64,000 bases of DNA from positions 20,484,309 to 20,548,308 of the forward strand of contig CM057228.1 in assembly GCA_029891385.1 (NCBI GenBank). The letters are read 5' to 3'. Under the pieces are notes generated by a model. It was not told where the DNA came from, made no database searches, and saw only the letters and a list, made by a program, of their open reading frames with translations. Each line of letters begins with the position of its first letter. Positions within the stretch are counted from its first letter, which is position 1. Shown here piece by piece: positions 321 to 50,177 of this stretch. A program made the position numbers and the translations under genes. The DNA comes from Erythroxylum novogranatense. Its lineage: Eukaryota; Streptophyta; Magnoliopsida; Malpighiales; Erythroxylaceae.

Positions 321-1557
321 GAGATGATTGTCGTTTTTGAGAGGAAGAAGCACGATAATTCTAGAAGAAAAGAAAGAAAATAAGAAGAGAATGGAGAGAA
401 GAAGCTTTCGGCTATGGAGAAGAGAAAAAGTAAGGGTTTTTTTTTTAAAAAATTGGGTTCTAGCTTAAGTTTTGCTTGGTTTCAAAGGAAAAAGGTGGAA
501 AAAACTTGAAAGCTTCCCATGGGGCTTGATAAATCCGAAATTTGAAGGAGAAAGAGGTAAGGGAAAAATTTGAGCTTTGAGTTTTTAGTGATTTTTTTGT
601 TTAGAAATATGGAAAAGGTGGTGGGTTTGTTAATTCCATGATTTATTTTGAAAGATTTCATGATTAAGTGAATTAATTTTGGTAAATTGTGACTTAGGTT
701 TATGTTAAATTTTGTGTTTGAGGATTTTATGAAATAGGCTTAGAATTATAGAGAATATGATGGATTGATGAATTATGATATCAAATTTTAAGGATTATGA
801 GATTTATGATATTGAATTTGGATAAGTTGGTTTAGGTCAAATTTTAGAAATTGAGAATTTTGAAAATTGGAGATTTAGATAGCTTGAATATGTGAGGAAT
901 TGATGTTTCCTAAGCTTGATTTGAGTAATTATGATATTTATGATATTTATTTTGGATAATTATGGTATAGGGAATTTTAAAGTTGAGGAAAGAAGAAGGA
1001 ATTTGGAGATTTGATGCTTTGGACAAAGTATTAGCATGGATATGAGGTGGGTAGTACGTTTATTTATTGAATTTTAAGCATAAGCATGTGATTTGAAAAA
1101 TCAAGGAGAAAAGCTTTGAAAAATTATTGTTTATGTACATGTTTGAAAGATTATGATTTCAAAGGATTAAATTCCTTATTTTATAAATGATTTTAAGAAA
1201 TTACAAGATTGAAGAAATTTATTGTTTTTGAATTATTAGATAAATTTGAAAAGTGGGCATTTTGAATATGTATATGTTTGAGTTATGTTTTAAAGAAATA
1301 CATTGCATTTATGATTTAGATTGATACGTGATCAAAGTGATGAATTTGGATTGAATGTGGATTGCTATATGATTTCATGCTTGGATATGTGGTTGAGATA
1401 TGAAAATATGAAAAATCAAGATTTTTGAAAAGTGCCTTCGAACAATTTGCATTTCCTTTTCGCTTATGTGTTATGTGGGTTTGGTTAGGTCCCTTGTGAG
1501 TCAGTGCACTGTCTCTATTTGTTTAAAGCCTTCTCCCGGTTGCCCGCTAGTGGCATA

Positions 1558-1578
1558 GGAGCTCCGATTTCGGACTCC
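1558..1578 (+). other. Hairpin ii of LTR G1
   Basis: Outer stem GGAG (1558-1561) with CTCC (1575-1578), inner stem TCCGA (1563-1567) with TCGGA (1570-1574). The equivalent in LTR S at 12007-12027 keeps GGAG/CTCC around a shorter TCC/GGA stem. Confidence 0.6.
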
Positions 1579-1586
1579 CTTCACGG

Positions 1587-1617
1587 CTACACTAGACCGC
1601 TATGCGGGAAAGTGTAG
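1587..1617 (+). other. Nested hairpin iii of LTR G1
   Basis: Outer stem CTACACT (1587-1593) with AGTGTAG (1611-1617), inner stem CCGC (1597-1600) with GCGG (1604-1607). LTR S at 12043-12074 has the same two-level fold with a different inner stem, CCAT/ATGG. A second nested hairpin follows at 1630-1662: CTTGC with GCAAG around CCGC/GCGG. Confidence 0.65.
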
Positions 1618-1942
1618 TACGTTCGCTCACTTGCCGCAGGACCGCTATGCGGAATGTGCAAGACGCCTGCTTGGACCGAACCGCACCATTTGATGTGTTT
1701 TGTGTGTTTCGTTCTGTTTATAAGTGCGTTGCATTGCATCATCTTAAAACAAAATGTGAAAATTTTGAGAAATAACTTATGGTGGTTTTCAATCAAGAGT
1801 GATTGCATTTGTTTTGGCAATATTTTAAAAGTGTGAAAATAAGAAATTTGCCAAATTTCTAATGTGAAATTTCGGAAATAAATGGTAAAGTTTTTCTAAA
1901 TATGATTTCGCTTATTTTTCAATATATAAACATATTATCTAC

Positions 1943-1957
1943 GAGCTATTTTAGCTC
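1943..1957 (+). other. CACCC-linked stem-loop, G1
   Basis: GAGCT, loop ATTTT, AGCTC, then directly ACCCCCC. This is one of six copies of a covarying stem-loop in the window's LTRs. Confidence 0.7.
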
Positions 1958-3063
1958 ACCCCCCTTTCATCCCCATCTCCAGGTATTCGAGTAGGAGATC
2001 GGATAAAAGATTGTCAGGACACCAGTTCGATTTGTGTATGTTTTTGTATCTTGAGTAGTTTGGATCTTTGTATAAGTTTGTAAATGGCTTGAAAAGCCAT
2101 TAAGGATTTGTAAGAAATTAAATTATGATGTGTATGAAATTATTGAAATTGTATAAAAAATTGTGTTATGGAAATGGATTTATATGCGGTTAATGGATTA
2201 TGGGATTTGCTTATGAATAGAATTTGGGTTGTGTTTGGATATGAACTCTGGAAAGATATGAATGTGATTTGAATATGATTGATTTCTAATTAAGATTTGT
2301 ATATTGACTTGAAGAATTCATAGTTTTTGGATATGTAGAATGTGTTTTGAATATGGATTGAAGACTGAAATGAGTTGGACATGAATAACAATTTGAAGTA
2401 GTTTAGAAATAAGTTTGTGTTTATCTGCTGAGATCCCGAACGAAGGGTCCGGTGGATTTTGATGAGTGTGTAATTGATTGGAATTTTAGAAGTGTATTTT
2501 GAACCTTTGCAAGTTTTGGGTTAGGTCAAAGGTAGTCGTTATGCTGCCAAATTTTCGTTAAAATTAGGATAAAAATGAGGTTTTGGACTTTGTTGCATGT
2601 ACATAAGAGCATGATAAATCTGAGATTTGTATATGGATGAATTTCCAAAAGTGGGAATTATTTGTAATTGATTGGCATGAGTTTGAATATGATGGTTATA
2701 AGAAAAAGAAAAGAAAGAAAGAAAAAAAAATACCGGATTAAGAAATATCTTAGGGTTTCCAGCGCGATCGTTGTTGTCTTTGTATTTTATTCACGGATGT
2801 TGGACATTTATTATGCGATTCGATTTGTCTTCATTTGTAGACTTTGACTGTAAGTTTGAATTTAATCCGTATATGTTTCGCCTTTGATTGTAACCGTTCT
2901 GAGTTGCTTCTTTCGATTCCGTATTCGATTTGCATTCGCTTTGCTTCCGTTTTCGCTTTGTTTGTCGTTATCGAATTCAATTTATCCTATTTGAATTCGC
3001 CACGTTCTTCGTATCCGTTTCTGCTTTTCAGTTGGGATCCGGTTCCCGGATCGGGTCCCAACA

Positions 3064-10455: not shown

Positions 10456-10486
<31 letters not shown>

Positions 10487-11318: not shown

Positions 11319-12042
11319 ATCAGCGTCACTACGAAGTGCCTTTTATTGTGGTGAGCCCCAGATTTTAAAGAAAGATGAATTTTGATGTTTTCGACATATC
11401 TTTTGCTATAGAAGTCCTTTTGAGGTGATTTTTGAGGCGTAGAAGTGAAGTTCTGAATCAGTCTCTTAGGATATGAAATTTTGGATGGAAGTTAAGAATA
11501 GAATTATTGTTTCAGCATGAGTGATTGAATAGGATGTTGGTTCTTGTTTTAGGTAACCAAGCGACGCAAGAGGAGCAAGGGGAACAAGAGGAAAGGCAAT
11601 TCTAAGCAAGTATTAAGCAAGGAATTCAAAGTGGGTTCATATTTATAATAAGAGTAAATAAGTCACTCATTGTTTTGTTCAAATCAAGAAAGATTTAATG
11701 CTTTTAAATTGCATCAGCAATGTTGCATTATTGTTATTGTGAATTGATTAAATGTTACTATATGATTTGCATTAATGATTATTAAACAGGTTTCAAAAAG
11801 GGTTTTTCTCCTTTCAAGAAATACATGCACATGAAATCATGTTTTCCAAAATGTATGAAAAGCAAGTTTACAAGCAAGTGCCAGTTTGGCAATTAAGTTT
11901 ACCAGACTTTGAATCATGCATGTTATGTGGGTTTGTGGTAGTCCCAAGAACTGTCATGTGCACGTTGACCATGAAAAGGCTTCGCCTGCCTGCCCGCAAG
12001 TGGCATGGAGCTCCCCACAAGGACTCCCTCAAGAAAGTACGA

Positions 12043-12074
12043 CTACACATAACCATTTCGATGGGAATGTGTAG
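12043..12074 (+). other. Nested hairpin iii of LTR S
   Basis: Outer stem CTACACAT (12043-12050) with ATGTGTAG (12067-12074), inner stem CCAT (12053-12056) with ATGG (12061-12064), loop TTCG. Homologous in position to 1587-1617, with a different inner stem sequence. Confidence 0.65.
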
Positions 12075-12294
12075 TACGTCATGAACCTGGACTAACCCGA
12101 ACCATTATGCTATTTTTATGTTTTTATGATTTGTTATCATGTTTCATGCATTCTACTCATGACCTGATTATAAATCAAGCATTTTGAGATGATGGTTTTC
12201 ACATGCTCAATTACTATGATTTCGACGTGTACCACAGCAATGAGTTATCTTTTAAATAGTTTTGCTTATTTCTGTATTATAAATGTGTTCCCAC

Positions 12295-12308
12295 GAGCTT
12301 TATAGCTC
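12295..12308 (+). other. CACCC-linked stem-loop, S
   Basis: GAGCT, loop TTAT, AGCTC, followed by ACCCCC. Equivalent to 1943-1957. Confidence 0.7.
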
Positions 12309-12739
12309 ACCCCCTCCCCCCTTTACTCTCCCCATTCAGGTGACGAGCAAGGAACCGAGTAAGTCAAGGCTCATGGCTACACTCCATTTTGTTATGTTAA
12401 AGTATTTTCATGTTCTACTTTTGGAAGTCAAGGCTTTAGTTACATTTCGAGTTTGATTAGTTCAAGTGTATTTTTGTATTTTTGACACTTGAACTTAAAG
12501 TTTGTAATTTGGTTTGAAATGTTATTAAAGCTTTGTAAAACTCATCTTTTGGATACTAATGACTATTGGATGTGGTTGTTTTAATAAAATGAAAGCAAGT
12601 TTCAAGCTTGTTCTCGATGGGATCCTTAAGCTTCCGAGGGTTTTTCCTTCTTCGCTTAATTAATAAATTTTGCCTCACGCAGCAAATACCACGCTTTCAT
12701 GCCCGATGTTGAGCTCCGAAAACGGGGTACAACAAATGG

Positions 12740-17884: not shown

Positions 17885-19720
17885 GACATTAAATGCTCCC
17901 TTTCAAGGCTTACGGATATGTATTGTTATTAAAAGGAAAGATGATTTTGTGCCTTATGTATAGCCATCCGAAACACACAAAAACGAACTCTTCTTTTAAA
18001 CCATCGATTTTTGCTATCCTTTTCTCATTTTCTCCATAACTATATGCTACCATCTCTTACTCCCATCAAAGCTAGATGATGATGAGTATGGTATATTCTT
18101 GAGAAGGAAAAGGTGGTAGCTTGATATAGAAGTTAGAAGGTAAAAGTTGGAAGTGGAACCTTTGAAGGAGAATTGTGTTAGGTAAGTTTCATTTAAGTAA
18201 TTGAGTTTAAATGATGTCTTTTATATGGATTCAATGCCATGATAGTGTGGGATAGTTAATAAAAGGGTTTAAAGCATGTATTAGGTTTAGGTGGGCATTA
18301 AAGTGATGATTATTATGATTTGAAGGAAAGGGGATGAGGTTAGATGAGGATGCATTGAAGTTAATGATATGGTTTGATATTGAATTGAATATGGATAATT
18401 ATTTGAGTATTTGAATTGAGGAATTTAATGCTGCCAATTTTTCAGTGTTAGCCCTAATATATGTATGACTGGATTAATATTTAATTTGTATTTATTTTGA
18501 TGTCTAGTGATGTGAAAAAGGCATTGGAAGTGGTTGAACTAAGGTTAACCTTAAATCTGGAAAATGGGAATTATAATTGATGTTACTGTTTTATTCATAA
18601 CTTATTGTGTAGAAATGCAAATGAGGTAAGGTTAGTGGCCACTGAAACTTTGGGATGTTGGCTTCAATTTAGTGTGAAATAGGTGTTGTTGAATTTCAAT
18701 GATAGAAGGGTGAAATTTTGCATGGAAAGTTACTGTTCCATTGCCTGTGAACAGTAACCGCAACCATGACATCTGAGTTTTGCTGATTTTTATGAATTAA
18801 TTGAGATGGAATTAGGGAGAATGGTCTTCATGGAAGTTGTAGAATATTTGATTATCTTTCCATTGCTACTGATCTTGCTATTTTTAGAATTGTGTATTGG
18901 GAGATATGAATTGATTACGAATGACTGGTTTTGAGCATTTTTGATGAAACCTAGCTTAAGTGTGATTTTGTGAGTTTACTGATTGGAGGCAATTTTAACA
19001 TTTTATGTGGACTGAACTGGTGTGAGTGAGCTTCTGAAAAGTTGTAGAGGAAAAGATTACCTTGAAAATGACATATGGTTTGTAATTTTTAGAAGTCAGA
19101 ATTGGGAGTTATGATTTTTCAAAAACTGACCCTACATTAGGTTATGAATGGCTGACCATAACAGACACTTCCATAACAGTTTTGAAATTGTTAGAGATTG
19201 AATTGGATGATGAGTGCTTCATGAAAATTGAAGTTTGAGATGTTATCTTTTCAGGGATATAAAGTTCTGAATTTACTGACTTGTATATAGGGAGTTATGC
19301 TTGTTGTAATGTTACTGCCCATATTGAAGGATTTCAGGGACAGTGACATTGAATGAATTAATTGACTGGTTTAGAAATAGAATTTGATTTTGGGTTGTTC
19401 ATGAAAGTTGTAGAGGACATTGTGAATTTATTGATCATATTTTTGTGGTAATTTATTACTAAGGAATCAGTGAGTTATGAAATTGCAAATGTACTGCCCT
19501 GTGTTGAGGGAAATTGTGAAGGCAGAAGGTTTGATGGCTTATTTGATACCCTTAGGGTTGGAATTGATTTTTATGGTCTTCTTGAGAATTGTAGAGCTTT
19601 TCATAAGCTTTCCAATGAGGTGTAGTGGGTATTTTTCTGATTTGTGTGTTAAAAGTTAGAGTAGTTGGAAATTAAGTTTTAAATCTGGAAAAAAGAAAGG
19701 GGCAAGGTAGTAGGAAGAAA

Positions 19721-19904: not shown

Positions 19905-20537
19905 CTTATGGATAAATAAATATTACTGTTTTTGATTATTTTTTTGGCATTAATTGATCCGATTGTTCCTTTGTCAATTTCTTTCCCGTCCGACGTCCGA
20001 TTGACCTGATTCCAGAGGCATCGGATTCGTTGAACATTTAATTTCATATTATGAGAAAACGGGAATTTTTAGACGGGAATTTGACGTAGCCCCTATTGAC
20101 GGATCATGTAAACACTGTTTTATTTAATTGAGGACCTATAGAGGTCCGAATTGCGCACCGTCAGCGCCTATGGATTTCTAATTTTTCATAGAATTTTATT
20201 ATGGGAAAATATTGAATTAGGACCGGGAATTCATGAACATGCATATCTCATCAACATGAGCACAAATTTCATATTTCGTGACTCGTATTTTTTCTGATTC
20301 ATATAGAGGCCCAATTGGAGCGTCGATTGACCGACGTCACAGAGGCTTTCCGGCATTAGCTCGGAAGTAATAGGTGAGTAACCTAGTTGGTTTCTCAAAT
20401 TTCTGGTTGTTTACATGCTCAACGTGAATTACGTGCAAAAGTGAATTGAATGATCACTGTATGAATACTGGCATGTAATGTATGGGATTGTATTGTATGA
20501 TTTTCTTTGCATCAATGATACCGATATTGATAGATCG

Positions 20538-20723
20538 GGCTTTATAGCCACCGTCATCAACTTCTTGCTATCTTGGGCCTTATAGCCATATCATTGATTC
20601 ATCGATACACCGGGCTTTATAGCCAAACATCGTACATTTATCGATATCGCATCGCATGCATAATTGCATGATCGATAATGGACGTGCCCCAGTTGCTATT
20701 ATTACCGATAAGAGCTTGAGCTC
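20538..20723 (+). repeat. Hairpin array in LTR B
   Basis: GGCTTTATAGCC (20538-20549), GGCCTTATAGCC (20576-20587), GGCTTTATAGCC (20613-20624) and GAGCTTGAGCTC (20712-20723) are short stem-loops spaced about 25-90 bp apart. The array takes the place of the more varied hairpin array in LTR T. Confidence 0.7.
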
Positions 20724-21021
20724 TCATATTTGTCATCGATCGCCACGAGCCCGAGGGGAGAAAATCGACGCGTCCCCACCGAACACCGATCGAGCACTTG
20801 GGCACAATCATCAATAAGCGGAAAGAGTCTCATATGCATCTCATTTGCATAAATGACCGCTCGTGACATGTCTCGCTTTTGTAATGGCATGAATTATCGT
20901 GAATGTTTTATCATATGGATATGATTATTGATCGCTTATCGGTAATCGATGATTAATGTATTATATCAGACGCCATAGGCGTAATGCATGATTTGAGTGA
21001 ACCATCAATGATGATTTTCTT

Positions 21022-21036
21022 GAGTTCGCAAAACTC
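21022..21036 (+). other. CACCC-linked stem-loop, B
   Basis: GAGTT, loop CGCAA, AACTC, then ACCC. Compared with families G and S (GAGCT/AGCTC), the fourth stem pair changed from C-G to T-A. Confidence 0.7.
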
Positions 21037-21425
21037 ACCCAAAATTTGCATTTATTTTTCAGGTCCTGAAGAATACCCCGGTTGACACGGGAGTATATCT
21101 ACTGTAGACGAGTAAAGGTTAGAGGTCGGGATCGGTTAAGGTATGCGCATTAGTGTCTTAGTAAAGCGTATTCGCAATCATTGTATAACAAGGCTTTATA
21201 TTTTCTTGAGCCATTGTGTTATTAATGTTTTACTGCATTGACTGATTGTAATTATTACTGGATGACTGTAATAACTGAAACTGGTTTATATTAAACACGG
21301 ATTTTATTTACTTACTGTGTTTGCCGTGTGAACGTGGAGTTAATGGCTCCAAAAAGAAAAAAAAAGTATATACTGAATTTTAAATCGACTGATGTAGTAC
21401 GCCACTCTCGTGGGACACGGACTCG

Positions 21426-30671: not shown

Positions 30672-30690
30672 AAACCGTCAAAATTTCAAG

Positions 30691-30700: not shown

Positions 30701-30705
30701 AAAAT

Positions 30706-31993: not shown

Positions 31994-32002
31994 TTATAAA
32001 TG
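31994..32002 (+). promoter_or_regulatory. TATA box of T 5' LTR
   Basis: TTATAAATG is followed by a TCTTCTTCTTCTC leader, conserved at 43075-43083 in the 3' LTR. Confidence 0.5.
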
Positions 32003-33258: not shown

Positions 33259-33260
33259 AT

Positions 33261-33272
33261 TGGTATCAGAGC
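33261..33272 (+). other. Primer-binding site of K
   Basis: TGGTATCAGAGC, the plant initiator tRNA-Met complement, 2 bp after the 5' LTR. Confidence 0.93.
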
Positions 33273-33285
33273 AGAAGTATCTGGG

Positions 33286-33459
33286 ATGGCACACAACAAC
33301 CTAGCGGAAGAAGGTAACACTAATAACCGACCTCCATTGTTTAATGGCTCTAACTATTCTTCATGGAAAAATCCTATGAAGTACCATATTATAAGTGAGG
33401 GAGTCGAATCTTTGGAAGATCATTATCTTGGACTCAAGCCCTACGAAAGAAAATGGTGA
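33286..33459 (+). pseudogene. K gag, N-terminal fragment
   Basis: The ATG lies 13 bp after the primer site. The 57-codon frame has PPLFNGSNYSSWK, the typical start of copia gag (UBN2-type), and ends at TGA after ERKW. The gag continues in other frames (33460-33762) with frameshifts, then in a long open frame from 33763. Confidence 0.75.
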
Positions 33460-33762
33460 GTCGAAAATAAATTTGGAGTATGATGATAACGATCGGAGGC
33501 AAGCTTACATCAACGCCAAAGCCATGAAGCCGATATATTGTGCGTTAACGGTTGAGGAAAGAAATCGGTAAATTCTGCACCACCGCCAAGGAAATGTGGA
33601 GAGACTTGAGTAACTCATGAAGGACAAATCAAGTACGGAGACGAAAATCAACATGCTTCTCCACGACTACGAGATGTTCGTCATGAAAGAAGGTGAGTCA
33701 ATTTCACAATGCTGTGACCGTTTTGCGAAATTATAAATGGATTAGGCAACACAGGAAAGCAC

Positions 33763-34473
33763 ATGACGGATAGCGACAAGGTGAAGAAGATTCTTCGTTC
33801 ACTGCCAAAGGAATGGGATTCTCAAGTGACCACAATCATGGAGTCGAAGGATCTCAACCATCTGGAATTCAACGCTTTGGTGGGATCACTCATCAACTAT
33901 GAAATTATTCTCAATTCCAGAGGAGGTAGAGGTAAGCCTAAAAAATCCATCGCTTTTAAAGCTAACACCTCTCTTGTTGATGAAAGTGATGAGGAATTAG
34001 ATGAAAGTGAGGAAGACGAAGAAATCGCGATGTACGCCAGAAATTTAAGGAAGTTCAAGGGACTTCTCAAAAATCGAAGAAAAGAATTAAATGGCAGAAA
34101 ACAGGTAGAAAGAAAGAGGTTTGGCACGGAAAGAAAAACAAAAGGCTATGACGAAAAGAAAGGCAACGAAGAATGTTGGAGATGTGGAAAGCGAGGACAT
34201 CTCGCAAGAGAATGCAAAAGCTCATCATCAACTTCAAATTTTCAGAAAAATGATAGATACGACAAAGGTAAAAAGAAAACTAGCTTGGTGGCAACTTGGA
34301 GTGATGAGGAGGATGCATACCAAAGCGATGATGAAAACAACCTGACACTTATGGCCAAGAGTTCATCAAGTGACGATGAAAATGAGGTAAATCACTATGA
34401 CCAAGATTTAAGAGATTCCTTTGATGCTTTACAAGCTGATTTTGAAGAAGCCATTGAGATTAACAAAAATTAA
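33763..34473 (+). pseudogene. K gag, central part with zinc knuckle
   Basis: 236 open codons. They include the KILRSLPKEW motif of copia gag near the start, an acidic stretch (DESDEELDESEEDEE), and a canonical CCHC knuckle CWRCGKRGHLAREC near residue 140 for RNA packaging, followed by acidic and Ser-rich sequence. The upstream end is frameshifted and the downstream end stops at TAA inside the coiled-coil region. Confidence 0.82.
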
Positions 34474-34494
34474 GAAAGAAAATACGAGAGTTAT

Positions 34495-35055
34495 TTGCTG
34501 AAAGCAAGTGTTTTACATGAAACGATTGATGATTTAGATAGTCCAAAAGAAGATCATTCTGCATGTCTTATTGAAAAAGAAAATCTTATTTGTGAGCTTG
34601 ATAGGCTTCGAAAAGAATTTTCGTATGTGGTTGGTAAATTCGCTGGTGGAAATGCTAAGTTTGAAGAATTGTTGTCTTTACAAAGATATACTATTTCTAA
34701 ACATGGATTAGGATATGATCCGTATAATAGAGAGTGTTCTTTAATTTCCAAATTTACCAAGATGGAAAAGTTGCTCAATGTGCTAGATGCTTGAAAGATG
34801 GTCATATAGAAATTGCATGCAAAAGCACTAGGAGATGTGTTAAGGTTAAGAAAGTTTGGGTGTTAAAAGGCTCAATACCACCTAATGTGGTTTATATGTC
34901 TAACCAAAATGGACCCAAGATGGCTTGGGTACCAATGAGAAGAAAGATGTTTCAGTTGTAGGTACAAGCAAGGGATGAAAATCCACCAAGCACATGGTAC
35001 ACTGATAGTGGAAGTTCAAGGCATATGAGTGCAGACAACAACAAAATCGACTAAT
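34495..35055 (+). pseudogene. K gag C-terminus and protease start
   Basis: 34495-34794 encodes a charged coiled-coil-like segment. From about 34746 another frame gives a second CCHC-type pattern (CARCLKDGHIEIAC) and the clade's KKVWVLKG and GPKMAWVP motifs. After one in-frame TAG at 34959-34961 that frame reaches the aspartic protease active site WYTDSGSSRHMS. The frame then ends at TAA near 35055, where the pol deletion begins. Confidence 0.78.
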
Positions 35056-35756
35056 GGGTGTCTAAGTCGACCAATTGGTGACAAGTCTGGTAAATAAGTC
35101 GACCTATGATATACACAGCCTTTGGAATGAAGAAATTTCAGGATAAGTCGACTTATGGAGGTAAACAAATCGACTTATGTCTACACGGATTCTTATGTTG
35201 TTTCAAGTGTATGGTGTTTCTTATGACTTTATGATATTTGTATTAATTGTTGGATTGTTATGTTATGACTCTGCATTTTCTTTGTGTTTGCTGTTTTGTT
35301 TGTTTATGGACTGCATTGCGACTATTTTTCATTTTTCATATTGGTTTTTTTTAATCATGACAAAAAGGGGGAGTAATATTGGAAATTGATAATTGGTATC
35401 CTTTAGTCACCATCATTTGATTGAGGGGGAGTGCGTTTGATTTGAGACGATTTGTGTTTGATGACCTGTTACTCTATTTAATGTGATTGTGATAATTTTT
35501 CATCTTCATATTTGTTGGTTTGTATTAGTTGTTTTGATTATGACAAAAAGGGGGAGAAAAAAAATGAGAAATTGATATTCTTTAGTCACTTGATTAAGGG
35601 GGAGTTTGTTTTTTACAAAGTTATTACATTCAATGATTTATATAGGGGGAGACTTCTAACTAAAATGACAAGGTATAGAAACCTTGATCAATGTTTCTTT
35701 GTTTTCATTTCTTAAACAATTTCTAAGTATTTTGTCATTATCAAAAAGGGGGAGAT
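35056..35756 (+). other. K 3' region with repeated purine tracts
   Basis: Contains further AAGTCGACTT-related palindromes at 35060-35175 and at least six AAGGGGGAG-type tracts (near 35364, 35426, 35548, 35598, 35646 and 35746). The last, AAAAAGGGGGAGAT, abuts the 3' LTR and is the functional polypurine tract. Confidence 0.8.
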
Positions 35757-36829
35757 TGTTGGACCAATGGTGGTTGACAAATTAATTCCACTTATGTTTT
35801 GATAATAACAAAATGTATAGAATTGGTTAAGAAATTGTTTCAGGTATTATTCAATGAAAGAATCGTGCAAATTAAGATAAGCAAGTGACAAATCATTGAA
35901 GAATCAAGATGGGAGTTGTCTTCTAAGTATATATGGCATAAAACATAAGGTTTGTAGAGAATTTGGTCGGATGTTATCATAGATGGCTAAACAAGTCGAC
36001 TTACACAATACAAGTTGACTTACATATGAAGATGAATTCACACAAGTCCACTTATAGGAAACAAATCGACTTATCGAGGTAAACAAGTCGACTTATATAT
36101 AACAAGTCGACTTATTGGAGAGCGGAGATGAAGTTTTCAGTAAATGGTTGAAACAAGTCGACTTATGAATTCGATAAGTCGACTTATGGATGCTGTGATT
36201 CAGCTCCAACGGTCATATTAACTAAAAATGGAATGGAGGTTATCAAGGCGGCTATCACAAATTAAGCAACGGCCAGAGAGCTCCAATAGCTATATTTCTT
36301 CTTATATAAAGGGTAGATGATTGATGAAGAATGTAGAGAAGTTCTAGAAGCCAAAATACTCTTATCTTGCTCTAAATTGCTCATCATTGTTATTACTTTG
36401 TTTACATTTGTATTGAGCACTTGTTCTTAGATCTTTATCCTATTTCTTTTACAAATTGAGTGACTAGTGGTACGTCACGTGTGAGGTAGCTTGAGCTGGA
36501 AATCAAGCGGTATTGGTAGGATTTGTGCTGGAAGACAAATCGAGTGTAAAAGGTTGTTTGAGCCGGAATTCAAGTGGTGTTGTAAAAAGTTCACACTCAA
36601 CTACAAAGTGTGCAATAAAGTGGTTGGCAAAATCCTAAGTGGGAGCTTAGGTAGAGGACGTAGGTCTTAGCACCGAACCTCTATAAAAACAAGTGTTTGA
36701 TCTTCTTCCCTACTCTTTTCAATTAAGTTTATTTAAATTATTTTTGTGTGTGTGTTAACTTCTGATTTTTTGTAGAAATTTTTCAAAGAATTTCAAGATC
36801 TATTCAACCCCCCTTCTAGATCGCTGACA
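35757..36829 (+). repeat. K 3' LTR
   Basis: Starts TGTTGGACC and ends CGCTGACA. It carries a longer AAGTCGACTT array (about 35994-36190, including GATAAGTCGACTTATGG) than the 5' LTR, so array copy number changed between copies. Confidence 0.93.
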
Positions 36830-36954
36830 GGTTTTAATGTTGTTATTTATGTGTTAAATGCATTCATGGGGTTAAATATAAAAGATTGTGGTAGTTGGTT
36901 AAGTTATGGTTGAATTTAGAGAGAGAAATGGCAAAAATCAGTCGGAGAAGACGA

Positions 36955-37205
36955 CTGTGCGGCTCGCACGTCGCATCGAGCAGACCAGCAGACGTCGCGG
37001 CGAGCTCGTCCTGTGCGTCGCGGCCAACCCGTTTCCTTACGCCGCGGCGAGCTCGGTTGGACGTCGCGGCGACCGTGTGATTTCACGTCGCGACGAGTCT
37101 TTTCCCCTTGCGTCGCGGCGAGACTGATGGAAGGTGTTCGCCACGGCGAGCGACCCGTTTTAGGCCGCGACGAGCGCTCATACGTCGCGGCGAGGGGCCT
37201 TTTTC
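36955..37205 (+). repeat. CG palindrome cluster, T 5' LTR
   Basis: About ten copies of CGTCGCGGCGAG and variants (CGTCGCGACGAG, CGCCGCGGCGAGC), separated by 11-20 bp of unrelated sequence. Cores such as CGTCGCGACG are perfect palindromes. An abrupt GC island in AT-rich LTR. Confidence 0.88.
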
Positions 37206-38205
37206 TGAAATGAGTTCATTTTGTTTTATATGCAAAAAAATTGGTGTAGACCTTCAATTGAGGTGAGGTTTGATTCGTTGTGATCTAGATAAAGAGGTCT
37301 ACAATTGAGGAAAAGAATGAGAGTGTGAATTTGGATTTTTGAGATCTCAATCAGTTAAAGAAGGTTAAGAAATATGATTGTATTGCATCCTAAGGATTGT
37401 TTTGAGTAATTGAGGTATAATGGTGAGGTTTCAAAATGTAAAGAAAAGTTATTGGAATTTAGAACTGAGCGTAAAGGATGAATTTGATTTAGAGAATTGT
37501 GATATTGAGTTTTGAGTTAATACCCTAGCGAGTAAGACTTGATAAATTGACTGAATATCCGAAATGGACTTGGTGGAGTTCCATCATATGTTATTGATTT
37601 GGAAGTAAATTATTATTGAACAACTGAGTGAAAAGTTAGAATTTGACAATAGAAAGTGGAAAATGGGAAATAGTACCGGGAAAAAATCATGAATAGGCAT
37701 CGTACATCTTTTATTTAAGGCATGTGCATCATGGAATTATTTGACTGTGCATTAGTAATGGGAATTATTTGATTGTTATAGAGGCTCTGATGGATCGATA
37801 ATCTACGGATCGTGCTGAGACTTCCAGGCAGGTAGCTCGGAAGTTCAGGTGAGTAACCTAGTTGGTTCCTCAACCTTTCTGTGTTTAATATTTTGCAATT
37901 ATGCCATGTGGAGATAATGGAGGGTTTATATGTGTGTTTGATTTTGATTGATTTCGGACCATAGGTGTCTGAAATATTTGGAATGTGATATCGAAGTGCT
38001 ACTTGTGTATAACTGTGTATGAATGCTTAAATGAAATAAATGGTGTATTTGAAATTTATTAATGGTCAATTCTTGGACGAAGTTAGAAGGAATGGAATTG
38101 GTCTTAAATGTAAAATGGTGTGAATGTGAATTGATACATATGCATACATGCATCAAGGCATGATCGAGATAAAGGCAGTTGTGACGGAGCAGCCAACGTA
38201 ATGTC

Positions 38206-38440
38206 GTGGTATCGCCACTTTCGAGGTGGTGCATACCGAGGGCTCTCCCACGATGCTCGGATACCACAGGCTCATCAGTCAGGGCATTCAGCCCAACGTA
38301 TTGAGCCACCGCTCAACGATTGTGCCGTCCTTTGGGATTATCAAGGCATATCACGCCTAACGTATATGAGAGCTTTAAGCTCAACGCCGGGACCTCTGGT
38401 CCAACGAAATTCGAGCCATGGCTCAATGTTAATGAGCTCA
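38206..38440 (+). repeat. Hairpin array, T 5' LTR
   Basis: Consecutive short hairpins with different stems: GGGC/GCCC (38282-38294), TGAGC/GCTCA (38302-38315), AGGC/GCCT (38344-38358), GAGCTT/AAGCTC (38370-38382), GGACC/GGTCC (38390-38402) and GAGCCATGGCTC (38413-38424). Most are followed by AACG or AATG. Weaker ones precede them (GTGG/CCAC at 38206-38218). Confidence 0.8.
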
Positions 38441-38652
38441 AAGCGCGGTCACAACAACGTAAGAAAATGAAAAGTGTCACATGTGCATTGCATATATGAA
38501 TGATCAGATGTGGAAAGTGCGAGAAAGATGAAATGCTATATATATGTGAAATGAAAATGCATGTGATACTTCCCAATATGTTATTGTGTGATTATCTGTG
38601 AACTGTGTGAATATGCATGAGTTGAGTGAACCATCGATGATGGTTTCTCATT

Positions 38653-38666
38653 GAGTTCGCAAACTC
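38653..38666 (+). other. CACCC-linked stem-loop, T 5'
   Basis: GAGTT, loop CGCA, AACTC, then ACCC, 25 bp before the acceptor. Confidence 0.7.
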
Positions 38667-39048
38667 ACCCAACATTGCAATTATTTTTCAGAAATCGAAG
38701 AGTACCCCATTAGTGAAACGGGAGTATGAGTACTGCAAGCAAGGCAGAGTTGGGTCGAGATCAGTCTCATGTCTGCATTTGAGTCATTTTGGTTATATGT
38801 GAAAAATTGTATTTTCGCAGATAAATATTGTTATTGTATTGGGCCCAATTTGGCTGTGAATATATGGAGGTGTATGAATGATTTTATGACTGAAATTAGA
38901 TTTTGACTGAAAATGTATTTGTATCGTGGCCCAGATTGTTTACCGATTTCTGCGCACTCTATTGTTTTGAAAAAGAAATTAATTGGTTTTCTGAGTTTTA
39001 AATTGATGTGACCGTTCTAGCATACTACCCTCATAAGGCACGGGCTCG

Positions 39049-39066
39049 GATATCACCCACGATATC
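39049..39066 (+). other. Terminal GATATC hairpin, T 5' LTR
   Basis: GATATC, ACCCAC, GATATC near the LTR end, also in LTR B and the T 3' LTR. Confidence 0.55.
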
Positions 39067-39098
39067 GGGTTCAGGTCTTGCGAGAGTGGGATGCTACA

Positions 39099-39115
39099 TT
39101 TGTGATATCAGAGCC
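39099..39115 (+). other. Primer-binding site of T
   Basis: TGTGATATCAGAGCCC resembles the initiator tRNA-Met complement TGGTATCAGAGCCC but has decayed. It starts directly after the LTR. Confidence 0.6.
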
Positions 39116-42100
39116 CAGAAGTACAATCTTACATGGGCTTTCTGAAAAATGTGTCGAGTCACATGCATTTAAGTCATGTTACGGCAGACAGTGACAACTG
39201 ATCCCCAGTATAGTATATGAGTCATATGCATAAGTATGTCTTAGTCTTTTAAGCGGTTAGAAAAAGTGAGGAAAAGGATAATGTGTTAGAATGTGATAAA
39301 AGGAAGTAATGGATATCGTGAAATAGGAAAAAGTGTATGGTTCGATATGACAGATGAATATCTTGTGTACCGGTATTGACGGATATATTGGGAAATACAA
39401 TATTAGAGTTATATTGAGGTATATCCTTGAATGTGGGATAGAAATAAGGTTATAGTTGTGGATTGATAGAGGAAAATGAAAATAGAGATATGATAATGGT
39501 AAGATTTCAAGCATATAAGCAAAGTGGAAAATCAAAAATGATTACATATTTATGATATTGATTTGAGTGCAAAAATACATGGGTATAATGCAATAATGAC
39601 AAGATTGAAATGTAAGACAATGAAATAGGTAGATGAAAAAGTTGTTCGGGTTTAGTTGTTTTGCCTAAGTAAATGCACACCTGATTACGGGAGCCCCATG
39701 GCAAGTGAGAATATTGAGCTGTAATTAATGGGTTAATGGATAATTGCTAGCTAGGATTCTTATAGAATGAAAGTGTTTATGATAATAAATTGGGAAAGAA
39801 GGGAGACTGTTAATGGTGTTAGCATAGGTAATGAGCTTGAGGGAATAAAAGAGAGACATCAGTATAGCAAGGTCCCCATGATCTAGAGTCGGTACCAAAA
39901 AGAGGAAGGTTATCTAGAATTAAATATGATTAAAGTTTTCTTAGTAGTATAAGCTACTAATAAGTAAATTGATGAGAATACATTTTTAGATAAGATGTGA
40001 TGATTATGGTGATTAATTGGAAATGAATTGAAATTGATACATGTTAAAGATATAATCATGATATAATCCTCATGAGTGAGGACAGGTGCAAAAAGAGAGT
40101 ATTGTCAAAAATCAAATGAGAACAAGGTATCCTTAGCGTAAGTGACTAATTGGCATATCGATGTAATGATTTTGATGGTATGTACCTCAATGAATAGTAT
40201 TAAAAAGGATGTTTTGAGTATATTGTGTATAGCTGAAATTGATCTTCTTGAGGTATTAAGAGTGACTGATATATCGTGATGAAAAATAATTGATTGATAA
40301 AGTTTTATGAACAGAATAAATGATTGATAAGGTTTAGTTGATCTGACGATTTGATTTGAGAGAAATCATTGAAGAGGTAAATCTGAATGAATTACAAGTT
40401 AATTTTGGAGTCCTAATTCTAGCAGAGACTCAAGCGTAAGAGGTAGAAAATACTACTGAAAAGTGTACATTATGATGATGAGATGAATTCGATTATGTAA
40501 GAGAATTACTGAGCATCAAAGAAATATTAATTGCGAATGTGAGGAGATTAAAGGTTCGTGTATATTTTGTGTAATTATGTTCTGAAAGTGCGAGGTTGAT
40601 ATGATAATTGTTTATTCAAGCCAGTGAGTGATCTATCGCAAATAAATTGGGTTATGTGGAGAAATTAAGGTAAGGAACATGTGGCAGAATATGTTATGAT
40701 GAGAAAATTATAAGAAAATTGTTCCTCATTGGAGACGTTTGATAATTAAAGAGTTATATGAATCAATTATGGGTATAAGAAGTTTATTGTATTACTGAAA
40801 AGGAACATGTCTCAATTGTGTTTAGAGTGGATAATGGATATAAACATAACTAATCAATTGAACGCATTTGGAAAATGAAATAGATGAATTGGTATAGTTG
40901 AGGAAATTGGTTATCATGCAAGTCTCATCAGAGCGAATCTTAACCTGATTGAATGAATAAGGGATGAATTAGTATACGAACATGGTATATTGGGAGAATT
41001 AATAAAGATATAGGTATTGATAAAATGCGAAAGTTCAAGAGATATGTGTATGAGGAATTTGGAATTAATTAGAACTAACTGAATGCTGGATGCGTTCAGA
41101 AATTGTCAAAGATTTTCTGGTTTTAGCAAATTGACAAGAATGTTTGAGGAAAACGTGTGAATGTTATGACTGATGATTGTAAAGGAGACATTTGGAGAAT
41201 TTTTGTGATGTGATCTATTGGAATTGTATAAAGTGATTTTATACACCTTGGGACAAATATAATTCCATGAGCGGTATTATGATTGATGATTTGAAATCTG
41301 TTGTACTGAGTGTGGCTTAAAAAGCTTGGAGACATTAATCGTACAGAAATAGTTTGGAGATGTCTATGAATATGCAAATCGATAACGATTGAGTTATTTC
41401 GTGCATTTGAATGATTTGAAAAGGATTAAGCGGCTGATTACTTCAAACTAAGCTAATGGTGCAATTCAATGGATTAAACAAAAAAAAATTCAATGGCAGA
41501 AGATCAAAATTTGGGCAATAAGGTTATCAAATCTAGTGTATTATTGAGTGTTAATAGTCGAGCTGACAAAAGGGGCAAAAGAAAGTATTATTAGCTATTG
41601 GAATTTCAAAGTTGGTGTGCATCAAAACGAATTGGCAAAACCTAAAGTGAGGATGTAGAAATTGTAAACCGCATCGAGGAACTGAAAATAACTCCAATTG
41701 TTGAGGAAAGTGATAGGTATAGTTCAAATTAAGAAATATGTATGGTATCCACTAAAGAAACCTTAAAGAAATCGCGAGGAATGATCAAAGCCTTATGGTT
41801 TAGAGAGTAAAATCGAATGATTATATGTGTGAATGATTATTTGTATGAATAACCAACAGACTTGACTGTAGAAAACAAATGTCAAACTGGTATTGTGGGG
41901 TTCATAGGGGCAGGAAATTGATGTACAGTCCAGATTGATTGAGGACATGATTGATTCGAGATAATGTTCCCTAGAAAAATAAATCTGTAATAGAGATTTA
42001 ATGATCTAAGTTAATGACAATGAGTCAAGTTGATTATATCGAGGTTATTAGAATCTCATGGAATTGGTGTTATAACCTTAAAGAGGTGTAATGTGATTAG

Positions 42101-42518
42101 TGATCAATGAAATGCTTTGAAGTGAATCATTTCGGCCTCGATGCACTGAGATAAAGATAAATGTGTAAATCGGAAAACTAAATTTGTTATAAGTGGTCTC
42201 TATGTGATTGGGGTGTGATTAGATTGGTAAGTCTGTTTAAAATCTAAAAGATGTTTTGGATTCACAAAGTGTTATATGGATAAAATTAGAAAATATTTTT
42301 ATGATATGATATATGTGTTACTGGTACCAAAAGTGAAGGATTACGAGTATTCATGAGGAATCAGTTAAATCAATGTAAAGTGTCAGTATTGATGTCAATT
42401 AATTGGTAGAAATTAGTTATGTAGTGTCATAAGAGGGAAATAATGTTTTAGCGATCGGAACAATTCTCCTGTCTTCTTGATTAATCGTATATGAAATTTC
42501 GAGGACGAAATTTTTATT
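39116..42518 (+). other. T internal region, non-coding
   Basis: No gag or pol motif on either strand. Base composition is skewed: in 40261-40320 I count 3 C against 11 G. Either the element was born as a coding-free derivative or its genes have decayed beyond recognition. Confidence 0.75.
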
Positions 42519-42531
42519 AGGAGGAGAGAAT
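42519..42531 (+). other. Polypurine tract of T
   Basis: AGGAGGAGAGAAT abuts the 3' LTR. The preceding TTTCGAGGACGAAATTT is a known chromovirus 3' end signature. Confidence 0.85.
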
Positions 42532-44060: not shown

Positions 44061-45947
44061 AGCGTTGCTTCGATCTGGCGCGTTTTGTTTCTCCAATCTG
44101 ACGCTGCTTTTGATTTTTCTTACTTGTTATTTCCTCCAATCCGACCTTTGTTCACTATTTTGCTTATATCTTTTCCTTCTGACATCCGATTGAGTCGTTT
44201 CTTGCGGCGTTGGATTCCTAAGACAATTATCTACATCCTCATAGAAATTTGTGAATTTTTGAGATTAAATTAATGGTGATTAATTTAATCAAAGTGAGTC
44301 GGGAAATTTTCCGAATATGGTTCAGTATTTTGTGAAATTCGGGATCTGCAGAGATCCGATTGAAGCGATTCTTGAGGCGAAATAAAGATAAGACAAGGGG
44401 CTACAAATCATATGAATAAATGAAATGTCAATTTTGCCCCTAAGACTTTTAATTTCTGAATTTAAGTTTGGATTAGGGTGTAAATTTTGGATTAGGAATA
44501 CCTGAGAGTATTTTGAGCTTAACTTTTGATCTGGGAATCGAAATGAGACGATTCTTGTTTTGAATTAAACTAGAGACATAAGGCTACAATTGTTATGAAG
44601 ACATTGAGTTTCAATTCTGGGATTAAGAATGTGAAATTTTGGACGGAAATAATCGTACATGGAAAATGTGTTAGAATATGGTTTTACCCGAACTGTTTTG
44701 CGCATAACTTTTGATGTAGTGATCGGAATTGAGCGCGGTCGGTGGCGTTGGATTTGTATGATTGAGAGGAACATTTCTTTAGAAGAAAGTTTGGACAAAT
44801 TCCTTCATCTTGATAGTGAGAATCAACCCGCAAGTGAGCATGACATAAAGTAGAGTTCAAGGGCAATTTGGTCTTTTAGTCACCATTTTAATGACATGGC
44901 AACATAAGGTGATGATTTGTCGTGTAAGAAGACTCTAGAAAGATTAAAGAAGTGAATGAAAAGGGTGGAAGTCGTTTTTAGAGAATGAGAAGGGAGAAAA
45001 GATGAGAGAAGTTTCGTATATGGAGAAAGAAGAAAGAGAAAACTTAGTTTTGATTTTTCTACTCAATTCTTAAGGCTTTTGGGATCTTTCCAAGAAAGAA
45101 AAGAGTGGAGAATGATGAGGGCTTCCTAATGAACCAAGAAAATTCGAATTTGGTGGAGAAAAGAGGTAAGAGAAATTTTTTAAGTTTGAATTTTTGATAA
45201 ATTTTTGGTTTAGAATCATTAGAAATGATGTGGATGTACTAATTCCTTGATCAATTTTAGAGAATACATGTTGAAATTGATTTAATTTTGGATGAAAATT
45301 TAATTGGGATTATGCCCAAATTTTATAATTTGGGGTTTTTGGAAATTGGTAGTGTAGAATTATGGAAAATACTATGGATTGATGATATGTGAAGTTAATT
45401 TTGAAGAATTTATGGATTATGATATTGAATTTAAATAAATTGGTTTAGGCCAATTTTAAGATTTCGGGATTTTCCCAAATTTTGTAAATTAAAGGTGTAT
45501 AATCATCAATAATAGCATGAATTGATGAAATATGGAATCAATTTTGAAAAAATTATGTTTTATGAGATTGAATTTGAGTGAATTGGTTTAGGCCAATTTT
45601 GAAAATTAATTTTGAAAATTGGGGATATTCAAAATTGGAGATTGAAATAGCTTGAATTTATATGGAATTGGTGTTTTCTAAGTTTAGTTTGAGTAAGTAA
45701 GTGATTTATGATATTAAATTTGACTAGTTCGGTTTAGGTCAAATTTGGACTTTAGAGCTTTTAGAAATTCTGGTTTTAGAAAGCTTGGAAATATGAAGAT
45801 TATGAATTTCCGATAGTCAATTTTGAGATTTACGCAAATTATGATGTAGAATTTGGGTGATTATGGCTTAGGTCATTTTTAGTTGAAAGAAGGAAAGAAG
45901 CAAGGATCAAATTGCGACTTGGAACAAGTTCTAGCGTCATTTCGAAA

Positions 45948-46850
45948 GTGGGTAGCATATTTATATTTTGATTTATAGGCAAGATACGAATTTTCAAAAA
46001 AGAAAGAAAGCAAAAGTTTGGATTTTGATAAATTATTGTTTTGTAAATGTTTGAAAATAAGAATTGATTAAAAGTTTGAAATTTTAATTTAGAAGGTTTT
46101 CGAAAAATTATTATAAGTGATTTGATAAATTGATAGAAATTTACGAAAGTGCATTTTTGTGTATGCATTATTCAATTGCTGAAATTATTGTTTGATTGAA
46201 TGATTTGATTGTTGAATTTAGTGAGCGATAGATTGAATAAATTGAGTTGTATGCATTTTGTGGAAATTTTGAAGAAAATCAAGATTTTGAAAAGTGCCTT
46301 CGGGCAATTCGAATCTCTGTTTTCGCTTACATATTATGTGGGTTCGGTTAGGTCCTTTGGTGAGTCATCATTGTCTCTATTTGTATAGCCCTTGGCTGCC
46401 CGCTAGTGGCACGGAGTTTCGATTCGGACTCCTTCACGGCTATAATGGACCGCTTTGGGAAAGTGTAATACGTTCTATTCACTGATCGCAGGACCGCTAT
46501 ATGGGAATGTGCAAGACGTCTCGCTTGGACCGAACAGATCATTTTGATATGTTTTGTGATTTTTATTTTGTTTATGTGCATGAAATTTCTCGATGTGATT
46601 GCATTCATGTTTATGATAAAATTTTGAGAAAAAAAAAAAAAGAAAAGGGTTTTTAACCGTGAAATTTTAGAAATTTGATATGTAAAGTTTGGAAAATTGA
46701 AAAGGGTTTGAGAAAATATTTGAAAGTTAAAAGTTTGAAAACTTCGCCTTTTGGCAAAAGCTTGTGAAAAATAATTTCCGCTTATTTATCGATTTATAAA
46801 TGTGTTATCCACGAGCTTTCGAGCTCACCCCTTTTCATCCCCATCTCGAG
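45948..46850 (+). other. Putative LTR intron, copy G2
   Basis: Donor-like AAA|GTGGGTAG at 45948 and CCATCTCGAG acceptor region ending at 46850 (CTCCAG in G1, so G2's acceptor has mutated). The hairpins at 46395-46530 are partly decayed. Confidence 0.3.
46813..46826 (+). other. CACCC-linked stem-loop, G2
   Basis: GAGCT, loop TTCG, AGCTC, then ACCCC. The loop would be a UUCG tetraloop in RNA. Confidence 0.72.
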
Positions 46851-48307: not shown

Positions 48308-49320
48308 GGCCTTTTTCTGAAATGAGTTCATTTTGTTTTTTAGGCATAAATAATGGTGTAGACCTCCAATTGAGGTGAGGTTTGATTCGTTGTGATCTAG
48401 ATAAAGAGGTCTACAATTGAGGAAAAGAATGAGAGTGTGAATTTCGATTTTTGAGATCTCAATCAGTGAAAGAAGGTTAAGAAATATGATTGTATTGCAT
48501 CCTAAGGATTGTTTTGAGTAATTGAGGTATAATGGTGAGGTTTCAAAATGTAAAGAAAAGTTATTGGAATTTAGAACTGAGCGTAAAGGATGAATTTGAT
48601 TTAGAGAATTGTGATATTGAGTTTTGAGTTAATACCCTAGCGAGTAAGACTTGATAAATTGACTGAATATCCGAAATGGACTTGGTGGAGTTCCATCATA
48701 TGTTATTGATTTGGAAGTAAATTATTATTGAACAACTGAGTGAAAAGTTAGAATTTGACAATAGAAAGTGGAAAATGGGAAATAGTACCGGGAAAAAATC
48801 ATGAATAGGCATCATACATCTTTTATTTAAGGCATGTGCATCATCGAATTATTTCACTGTTCATTAGTAATGGGAATTATTTGATTGTTATAGAGGCTCC
48901 GATGGATCGATAATCCACGGATCATGCTGAAACTTCCAGGCAGGTAGCTCGGAAGTTCAGGTGAGTAACCTAATTGGTTCCTCAACCTTTCTGTGTTTAA
49001 TATTTTGCAATTATGCCATGTGGAGATAATGGAGGGTTTATATGTGTGTTTGATTTTGATTGATTTCGGACCATAGGTGTACGAAATATTTGGAATGTGA
49101 TATCGAAGTGCTACTCGTGTATAACTGTGTATGAATGCTTAAATGAAATAAATGGTGTATTTGAAATTTATTAATGACTGAATTACTGGACCGAAGTTCC
49201 GAAGGAATGGGAATTGGTCTTAAATGTAAAATGGCTGTGAATGTGAATTGATACATATGCATACATGCATCAAGGCATGATCAGATAAAGACAGTTGTGA
49301 CCGGAGCAGCCAACGTAATG

Positions 49321-49570
49321 TCGTGGTATCGCTTGCCCCCTGAGGTGGTGCATACCCTGAGGGCTCTCCCACGCAGTGTTCGGATACCACAGCTCAACAG
49401 ATCAGGGCATTCAGCCCAACGATTGAGCCATAGGCTCAGCGCATTATGCCCGTCCTTTGGGATTATCAGGGCATATCACGCCCAACGTATATGAGAGCTT
49501 TAAGCTCAACGCACAGGACCTCTGGTCCAACAAAATTTCAGAGCCACTGGCTCAATGTTAATGAGCTCAG
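49321..49570 (+). repeat. Hairpin array, T 3' LTR
   Basis: Counterpart of 38206-38440. Stems are kept although sequence differs: GGGC/GCCC replaces AGGC/GCCT around ATATCAC, TGAGCC/GGCTCA replaces TGAGC/GCTCA, and GAGCC/GGCTC has a longer loop. Confidence 0.8.
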
Positions 49571-49782
49571 GCGCACGGTCACAACAACGTAAGAAAATGA
49601 AAAGTGTCACATGTGCATTGCATATATGAATGATCAGATGTGGAAAGTGCGAGAAAGATGAAATGCTATATATATGTGAAATGAAAATGCATGTGATACT
49701 TCCCAATATGTTATTGTGTGATTATCTGTGAACTGTGTGAATATGCATGAGTTGAGTGAACCATCGATGATGGTTTCTCATT

Positions 49783-49796
49783 GAGTTCGCAAACTC
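49783..49796 (+). other. CACCC-linked stem-loop, T 3'
   Basis: GAGTT, loop CGCA, AACTC, then ACCC, as in the 5' LTR. Confidence 0.7.
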
Positions 49797-50177
49797 ACCC
49801 AACATTGCAATTATTTTTCAGAAATTGAAGAGTACCCCGTTAGTGAAACGGGAGTATGAAATCTTCCGCAAGTGCGCAGAGTTGGGTGGGATCGATCTAA
49901 TATACGCATTTGAGTCATTTGGTTATATGTGAAAAATTGTATTTTCGCAGATAAATATTGTTATTGTATTGGGCCCAATTTGGCTGTGAATATATGGGGG
50001 TGTATGAATGATTTTATGACTGAAATTAGATTTTGACTGAAAATGTATTTGTATCGTGGCCCAAATTGTTTACCGATATCTGCGCACTCTATTGTTTTGA
50101 AAAAGAAATTAATTGGTTTTCTGAGTTTTAATTGATGTGACCGTTCTAGCATACTACCCTCATGAGGCACGGGCTCG

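Follow-up and report, generated by a model that had tools for sequence, protein, structure and literature searches.

Splice donors inside the R region are present in HTLV-1, BLV and the foamy viruses, HTLV-1 has in addition the Rex response element, and CaMV has a long structured leader. Plant LTR elements are generally without introns, and the accessible portion of one review gives Ogre and EVADE as the named exceptions, names Ogre, EVADE and BARE1 as spliced plant LTR retrotransposons, and mentions a structured leader (PMC12786077). Tyran and Varan of sunflower are likewise spliced, according to the accessible portion of the corresponding report (PMC7730604). For BARE, the use of one RNA as both message and genome is called a major open question in the part of the source available (PMC3735527). 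Work on retroviral R regions built no model for plant Metaviridae, since their LTR lengths vary too much, as stated in the available part of that study (PMC3601003). In the accessible portion of a paper on the yeast RPS17B (RP51B) intron, splicing is efficient only when the two intron ends pair, and efficiency is associated with base pairing between the start of the intron and the branch-point sequence (PMC2536676). The literature searched, which included the available part of PMC9097378 and from which most subscription papers were absent, yielded no description of an intron inside a plant LTR.

Here we analyse an intron-like module of 690–940 bases that is located inside the LTRs of several plant retrotransposon families in one 64,000-nt stretch of DNA (the window; Table 1). 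An earlier note had read a common sense-strand order in six LTR copies from four families, labelled G, S, B and T. This order (GTGAGT or GTGGGT, a terminal hairpin, CACCC and a pyrimidine-rich AG) is present at all six places, and the terminal hairpin is in each case GAGYT...ARCTC, followed by CACCC and then by the pyrimidine-rich AG. We scanned the window for perfect 5-bp hairpins with CACC and then a pyrimidine-rich AG behind them, under limits (loop 3–6, 65% pyrimidine) chosen when the six sites were already known. The scan returns six sites on the plus strand, those of the six modules, and none on the minus strand; in 200 dinucleotide shuffles of the plus strand, the mean is 0.05 sites and the maximum 1. 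When the AG condition is dropped, there are six sites on the plus strand and two on the minus strand, against an average of 0.49 and at most 3 in the shuffles. What the six modules have in common is therefore unlikely to be due to chance, even without the AG condition.

Table 1 Features of the modules and of the LTRs that carry them, in window coordinates.
Feature	Position	Strand	Basis or remark
T element	31451-50227		ends TGTAACATCCC and GGGATGCTACA, duplication ATCAT (by eye)
B solo LTR	17235-21475		duplication ATAAA (by eye)
G2 solo LTR	43222-47768		duplication GCTAG (by eye)
S solo LTR	10630-12734		duplication AATGG (by eye)
T1 module, candidate intron 2, GTGAGT...TTTTTCAG	37849..38691	+	motif order, donor, acceptor
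T1 candidate exon 2, 67 nt	37782..37848	+	GTTATAG before, CAG/GTGAGT after; kept in B
T1 closing helix, 5' arm GGTTCCTCAAC	37864..37874	+	local duplex only
T1 closing helix, 3' arm GTTGAGTGAACC	38621..38632	+	local duplex only
T1 hairpin array, stems of differing sequence then AACG/AATG	38170..38470	+	6 units
T1 terminal hairpin GAGTT-CGCA-AACTC + ACCC	38653..38670	+	CTCAC = branch-point-like motif
T2 module, 3' LTR of T element	48961..49821	+	motif order, donor score, duplex
B module	20374..21062	+	motif order, T alignment, splice scores
B candidate exon 2, 67 nt	20307..20373	+	rank 1/898
B closing helix, 5' arm, partner 20991-21003	20389..20400	+	not significant
B terminal hairpin + ACCC	21022..21040	+	hairpin scan
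S module	11631..12339	+	motif order, duplex
S candidate exon 2, 78 nt, T-poor	11553..11630	+	rank 2/616
S helix core, 5' arm from GT, partner 12278-12294 abuts hairpin	11631..11647	+	15/17 pairs
S terminal hairpin + ACCC	12295..12312	+	hairpin scan
G1 module, LTR cut by window start	1047..1982	+	motif order, duplex
G1 candidate exon 2, 76 nt	971..1046	+	rank 2/465
G1 helix, 5' arm, partner 1920-1942 abuts hairpin	1047..1069	+	21/23 pairs
G1 inner hairpin CTACACT...AGTGTAG then TACG	1583..1624	+	common to S, decayed in G2
G1 terminal hairpin + ACCC	1943..1961	+	hairpin scan
G2 module	45948..46850	+	motif order, duplex
G2 candidate exon 2, 76 nt, weak	45872..45947	+	rank 34/457
G2 helix, 5' arm, partner 46795-46812 abuts hairpin	45948..45965	+	18/18 pairs
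G2 terminal hairpin + ACCC	46813..46830	+	hairpin scan
B candidate intron-1 donor TAG/GTAAGT	18182..18187	+	donor score
Candidate intron-1 donors elsewhere	T 32250, S 11029, G1 557, G2 45166	+	donor score

The six copies represent only five insertions, as the T copies (T1 and T2) lie in the two LTRs of one element; the others are the solo LTRs B, S and G2, and G1, whose LTR begins before the window start. Ends of the form TG...CA and a target-site duplication are found by eye in T, B, G2 and S. Each LTR of T holds one module copy and is interrupted by a later insertion. G2 lies inside the 3' LTR of T, indicating that G2 landed after T. The 5' LTR of T is followed by a primer binding site, TGATATCAGAGC at 39103, a feature confined here to T, the other LTRs being solo or cut. 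The two T LTRs are 92.7% alike in their main piece. The T interior (about 39099–42530) contains no plus-strand open reading frame of at least 60 amino acids, and B, G2 and S are without an interior. T, whose LTRs measure about 3 kb, is probably non-autonomous. The LTR ends may resemble those of Tekay-type Ty3/gypsy chromoviruses, a group marked by a pol with a chromodomain. G1 and G2 are about 67–69% alike in the aligned pieces, and much of this divergence would have arisen while the family was active.

Several other elements lie around these LTRs. A Ty1/copia element (32265–36829; LTRs 90% alike, gag PF14223, zinc knuckle, primer site TGGTATCAGAGC at 33261) is nested in the 5' LTR of T. A probable gypsy element on the minus strand occupies 23814–31450 and 50227–50979, and its LTR seems to be split by the T insertion; it contains gag PF03732 at 29349–30677, an aspartyl protease at 28158–28976 that falls below Pfam's cut-off, and none of the hairpin-CACC sites. 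S landed at the right edge of a dense block of imperfect direct and inverted mutual repeats (5900–10630). A FAR1/MULE-type fragment is found on the minus strand at 2982–5014 (PF03101, PF10551, SWIM PF04434), and a 2.3-kb sequence is present as two direct copies, 95% alike, at 14096–16393 and 58528–60835, with no hairpin-CACC site inside. GC-rich tracts, CGTCGCGGCGAG-like or CTCGCGAGGGCGACG-like, sit in the otherwise AT-rich LTRs of T (36960–37200), B (19720–19900) and G2 (43930–44070), where the local fold z reaches −5.5 in G2.

The modules of G, S, B and T all exist, but by alignment they group as two pairs, T/B and G/S, rather than as the four families of the earlier note. Similarity between T and B is confined to islands (E 1.5e-25, 9e-16 and 5e-13), and G2 aligns with S (E 7e-10). 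In a profile search, the module-end profiles of T/B miss G/S, and vice versa. The relation between the modules of the two pairs thus rests on the order, the hairpin and, in T, the closing helix described below, not on sequence. Upstream of the modules, a 52-nt stretch is 79% alike between G2 (43753–43804) and B (19561–19612; E 9e-7), a sequence match which hints that the likeness between the two LTR pairs goes beyond the module.

With the LTR ends set aside, the T piece 36830–39098 has two strong islands of similarity to B, the next best match having E 0.12. The first island (37770–37887 with 20295–20413; 75%, E 5e-13) starts 12 bases before an exon-like unit and spans an acceptor-like TATAG, the 67-nt unit and the strong donor, reaching 39 nt into the candidate intron. 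The second island (38613–38735 with 20984–21104; 82%, E 1.5e-25) consists of the last 79 nt of the candidate intron and 44 nt past the AG. T1 and T2, which have been drifting since insertion, show no such islands: their identity is 96% and 95% in the two island regions, 98% in the LTR end, 86% in the array and 95% elsewhere. When G1 and G2 are aligned, 40-column windows have a mean identity of 49%; the values are much higher in the inner array (88%, at 1644) and in the segment from hairpin to acceptor (85%, at 1945), and higher still (90–93%) in the LTR end and in portions of the 5' region. This global alignment loses its register at the donor, for which it was set aside.

No Rfam family matches at gathering score in the 64 kb, and no tRNA gene is predicted by ARAGORN with the bacterial code. 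No relatives of the window were found in the viral and prokaryotic contig collections scanned: exact-pattern scans returned 112, 63 and 0 stretches from viral contigs and 0 from genome contigs, and none of 175 fetched stretches matches the window at E 1e-6 or better. Compared with the six module regions, the 175 stretches give 14 short rows with E values of at most 1 and, in the best case, 0.010, which we regard as chance matches to short patterns.

From the sequence, we consider the chances about even that the LTR contains the whole of a non-coding leader with three exons, whose second intron is the module. The sites were scored with simple splice matrices and a T-term weight that come from general knowledge, were written after the site had been seen, and are not trained on the host species. 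By these scores, the module donor is in the top 0.4% of 3157 GT sites in T, 1.3% in B, 4% in G1, and 15% in G2 and S, and the module acceptor is in the top 0.8% of 3656 AG sites in T and 0.2% in B. In the G/S pair, the acceptors are C-rich and poor (top 25% of AG sites in G1, 84% in G2 and 14% in S).

Directly upstream of the donor, candidate exon 2 ranks first of 605 in T by splice matrices plus T-contrast (ranks and lengths of the other units in Table 1). The T content of the unit is below that of both flanks in five of five cases, in a tally where the first base of the T1 and G1 units is off by one. By T-contrast alone, the unit is in the top 3% of windows in T, 4% in B, 2% in S, 10% in G1 and 11% in G2. 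Further upstream, each LTR has a strong GTAAG donor, which is the best or tied best in the scanned stretch for G1, G2, S and B and has the second best score for T. In T, candidate intron 1, which begins at this donor, contains a later insertion. A TATA box is seen by eye 245–305 nt before the donor in G1 (at 312), B (17877) and T (31995), and none is evident by eye in G2 and S. A profile of the five donor regions recovers its own members and the second T copy, and is not independent evidence. In T and B, the donor and acceptor consensus, a T-rich interior and a candidate branch site are all present. The possible splicing raised in the earlier note is accordingly supported, by sequence alone, in T and B and no more than plausible in G and S, where the donor-like GTGGGT, although in place, scores poorly.

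In most copies, the two ends of the module are predicted to pair. Duplex energies between the first 45 nt of the module and the stretch 30–120 nt before the AG, each compared with 1000 shuffles, are −32.8 kcal/mol in G1 (z −6.0, p 0.001), −38.1 in G2 (z −6.7, p 0.001), −39.7 in S (z −8.4, p 0.001), −28.9 in T1 (z −5.1, p 0.002) and −28.2 in T2 (z −4.9, p 0.001); the duplex of B (−23.0 kcal/mol, z −1.8, p 0.054) is not significant. Among 60-nt windows of the LTR (289 in G1, 438 in G2, 194 in S, 210 in T1; T2 was not in the scan), the best partner of the first 36 nt is the stretch before the hairpin in G1, G2, S and T1, and lies elsewhere in the LTR in B. Control pairs of segments, taken at equal spacing from other parts of the LTR, match the duplex in strength in 0 of 296 cases for G1, 1 of 513 for G2, 0 of 193 for S, 6 of 196 for T1 and 45 of 500 for B. 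In G1 and G2, the profile search also matches the donor side, weakly and on the minus strand, to the acceptor side (E 0.25 to 14).

When the whole module is folded, the closing helix is present in G1 (33 pairs), G2 (27) and S (38), and is absent from the minimum-energy fold of T1, T2 and B. The helix is strong in G and S; in T it is fair and limited to a local duplex. In these modules it supports the word "structured" of the earlier note, and in B it is not significant. In G1, G2 and S, the arms run from the G of GT to the base before the terminal hairpin (core pairs in Table 1), with the listed pairs of the G2 whole-module fold beginning two bases in, at 45950. At helix positions 9 and 12, G1 and G2 have different bases in both arms, and in a swap test own arms pair better than swapped arms in five of five columns and four of five rows. 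An excess of GU over AC pairs in the helix (22 versus 1) was rejected as evidence, because the energy model picks GU pairs and so biases the count. The pairing predicted in G1, G2 and S is of the kind in which intron ends would bring the 5' splice site to the candidate branch point. The helix begins at the donor itself in G and S, where GTGGGT is paired with a probability of 0.85–1.0 at every base except the sixth in S, whereas the main helix arm of T begins only after the donor.

The 3' arm of the terminal hairpin runs into CTCAC, 23–30 nt before the AG. We take this motif, as a fit to the branch-point consensus YTNAY, to be a plausible branch site. In the whole fold, the probability of the terminal hairpin is 1.00 in G1, 0.99 in S, 0.73 in B, 0.32 in T1, 0.15 in G2 and 0.00 in T2. 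The hairpin is GAGCT/AGCTC in G/S versus GAGTT/AACTC in T/B, so that both sides of one pair are changed; the covariation score (one of five pairs, five sequences) is reached by 55 of 500 shuffles. An inner hairpin, CTACAC...GTGTAG, is common to G1, G2 and S with 93% of cells paired, and 2 of its 10 pairs have changed on both sides, a score that 117 of 500 shuffles reach. Covariation at single pairs in three to five sequences is too thin to beat shuffles.

The hairpin array reported for all copies stands out clearly in T but only marginally in B and S, and by strict count G has no array. In T1, six stems of 4–6 bp are followed by AACG or AATG, out of 11 AAYG (shuffle mean 0.18), and in T2 four stems, out of 9 AAYG (shuffle mean 0.13); neither count is reached in 2000 shuffles. 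Counted strictly across the entire module, perfect hairpins number 7 in T1 (shuffle mean 2.74, p 0.013), 7 in T2 (3.09, p 0.033), 6 in B (2.58, p 0.043) and 5 in S (2.17, p 0.040), and they do not exceed shuffles in G1 (3; 2.03, p 0.30) and G2 (2; 1.68, p 0.51). In the stretches taken as the array, the strict count is 0 in G1, G2 and S. Among 160-nt windows (50 shuffles each), three in S and one in B, in or across the module, have a fold z below −3, and none in the modules of G1, G2 or T1. With so few windows below −3, folding energy alone would have missed the module. The T array drifts faster between the two LTRs than the rest (38170–38460 versus 49290–49600; 86% versus 95%), and putative deamination at CG sites is the likely cause.

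The same helix and hairpins might instead form a domain of the unspliced genomic RNA, serving in its leader for packaging, dimerisation or nuclear export, a reading that we regard as possible but rather doubtful. GTGRGT and AG would then merely resemble splice sites, because they are a helix strand and a linker. In G and S, GTGGG does serve as a helix strand, pairing with CCCAC, TCCAC or TCTAC, and the poor donor and acceptor scores there fit as well, as do the many stems of the T array with their one spacer, AACG. However, a domain of this kind leaves unexplained the top-ranked exon 2, with its acceptor and donor, and the strong 3' acceptor in T/B.

We think it unlikely that the module acts at the DNA level, with the surroundings of the hairpin as a core promoter (TATAAA, initiator and pyrimidine patch) and the palindrome as a protein-binding site. 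In G1, G2 and S, TATAAA is located 32–34 nt before the A of CTCAC, which is the usual spacing between a TATA box and a start site. In addition, the antisense duplex is still significant in G1 (z −7.4), S (−6.8) and T1 (−5.0), roughly on a par with the sense duplex in G1 and T1 and not far below it in S, and B is weak on both strands. Pairing is sense-only in G2 (z −6.7 versus −1.2 antisense), which argues against a DNA-level element; as the antisense helix is lost only there, a strand preference is not general. Moreover, T and B have no TATA at the corresponding place, and TATAAA of G/S is itself the 3' arm of the helix, with neighbours that change together with the 5' arm at two positions.

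A MITE-like inverted-repeat transposon that landed in an ancestral LTR, with the closing helix as its terminal inverted repeat, would account for complementary terminal arms of 17–23 nt and for modules of 0.7–0.9 kb. This origin is very improbable, as no target-site duplication beside the arms is common to G1, G2 and S by eye (GAG is on both sides in G1 only), the arms keep pairing despite divergence, and the terminal hairpin abuts the arm without a gap in all three. Least probable of all is that the fold would join distant parts of a poly(A) signal, as a fold in the long R region does in HTLV-1: T/G-rich, poly(A)-like stretches are seen by eye about 60–250 nt after the module in G1 and S, but the idea is drawn from analogy only. 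A pararetrovirus-type short open reading frame before the stem was also considered and dropped, being present, by eye, in G1 only.

Returning to the leader intron, we infer splicing, the start site and the poly(A) site of the leader RNA from sequence features, and the order of events would be as follows. Transcription would start near the upstream TATA, and splicing would link exons 1, 2 and 3 in that order. The closing helix would act as a "zipper" that sets the 5' splice site beside the branch point across 690–940 nt. As the terminal hairpin shares bases with the branch site, part of the RNA would stay unspliced. The spliced form would be the messenger and the unspliced form the genome; unspliced RNA would be needed, because genomic RNA without the intron would yield LTRs without the intron. 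Whether each transcript carries the module twice, as the earlier note had it, depends on the start and poly(A) sites.

T/B and G/S may lie at different points between "spliced" and "kept", since the splice signals are good in T/B, and in G/S the signals are poor and the helix is at the donor. More tentatively, the module could be an LTR-borne, self-preserving regulatory intron, whose zipped ends and hairpin-seated branch site would keep a share of the RNA unspliced, only the unspliced RNA being copied into new elements and the spliced leader RNA being translated, as a sorting device throughout the family. If this is true, the splicing state would sort messenger from genome in plant retrotransposons, and an LTR intron kept by structure would give a simple, testable answer to the question of message versus genome. 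Solo LTRs near genes could then donate ready-made leader exons and introns.

Compared with the systems described above, the module is similar to the RPS17B intron in that the 5' end of the candidate intron pairs with a stretch before the putative branch point, shortening the structural distance, as described in the accessible portion of that work (PMC2536676). RPS17B, however, is a yeast gene intron for which that portion describes tested mutants, whereas the module is part of an LTR, present at both ends of an element, and is a candidate intron proposed from sequence (PMC2536676). As in Ogre, EVADE, BARE1, Tyran and Varan, the proposed splicing would separate an unspliced genome from shorter RNA forms; in the available parts of the sources, those elements splice coding parts, giving a short Gag or other protein forms, whereas the candidate introns here are in the LTR leader (PMC12786077, PMC7730604). 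Residual conservation linked to stem-loops is a likeness to retroviral long R regions, for which the accessible part of the stem-loop study describes no intron, unlike the candidate here (PMC3601003). The module resembles the CaMV-type leader as a long structured leader in a plant reverse-transcribing element, and differs from it in having no conserved short open reading frame before the stem (one is seen by eye in G1 only). Finally, like HTLV-1, BLV and the foamy viruses, the LTRs of the window combine a candidate splice donor with structured RNA, but the candidate acceptor is here inside the LTR as well, a likeness for which we claim no common descent.
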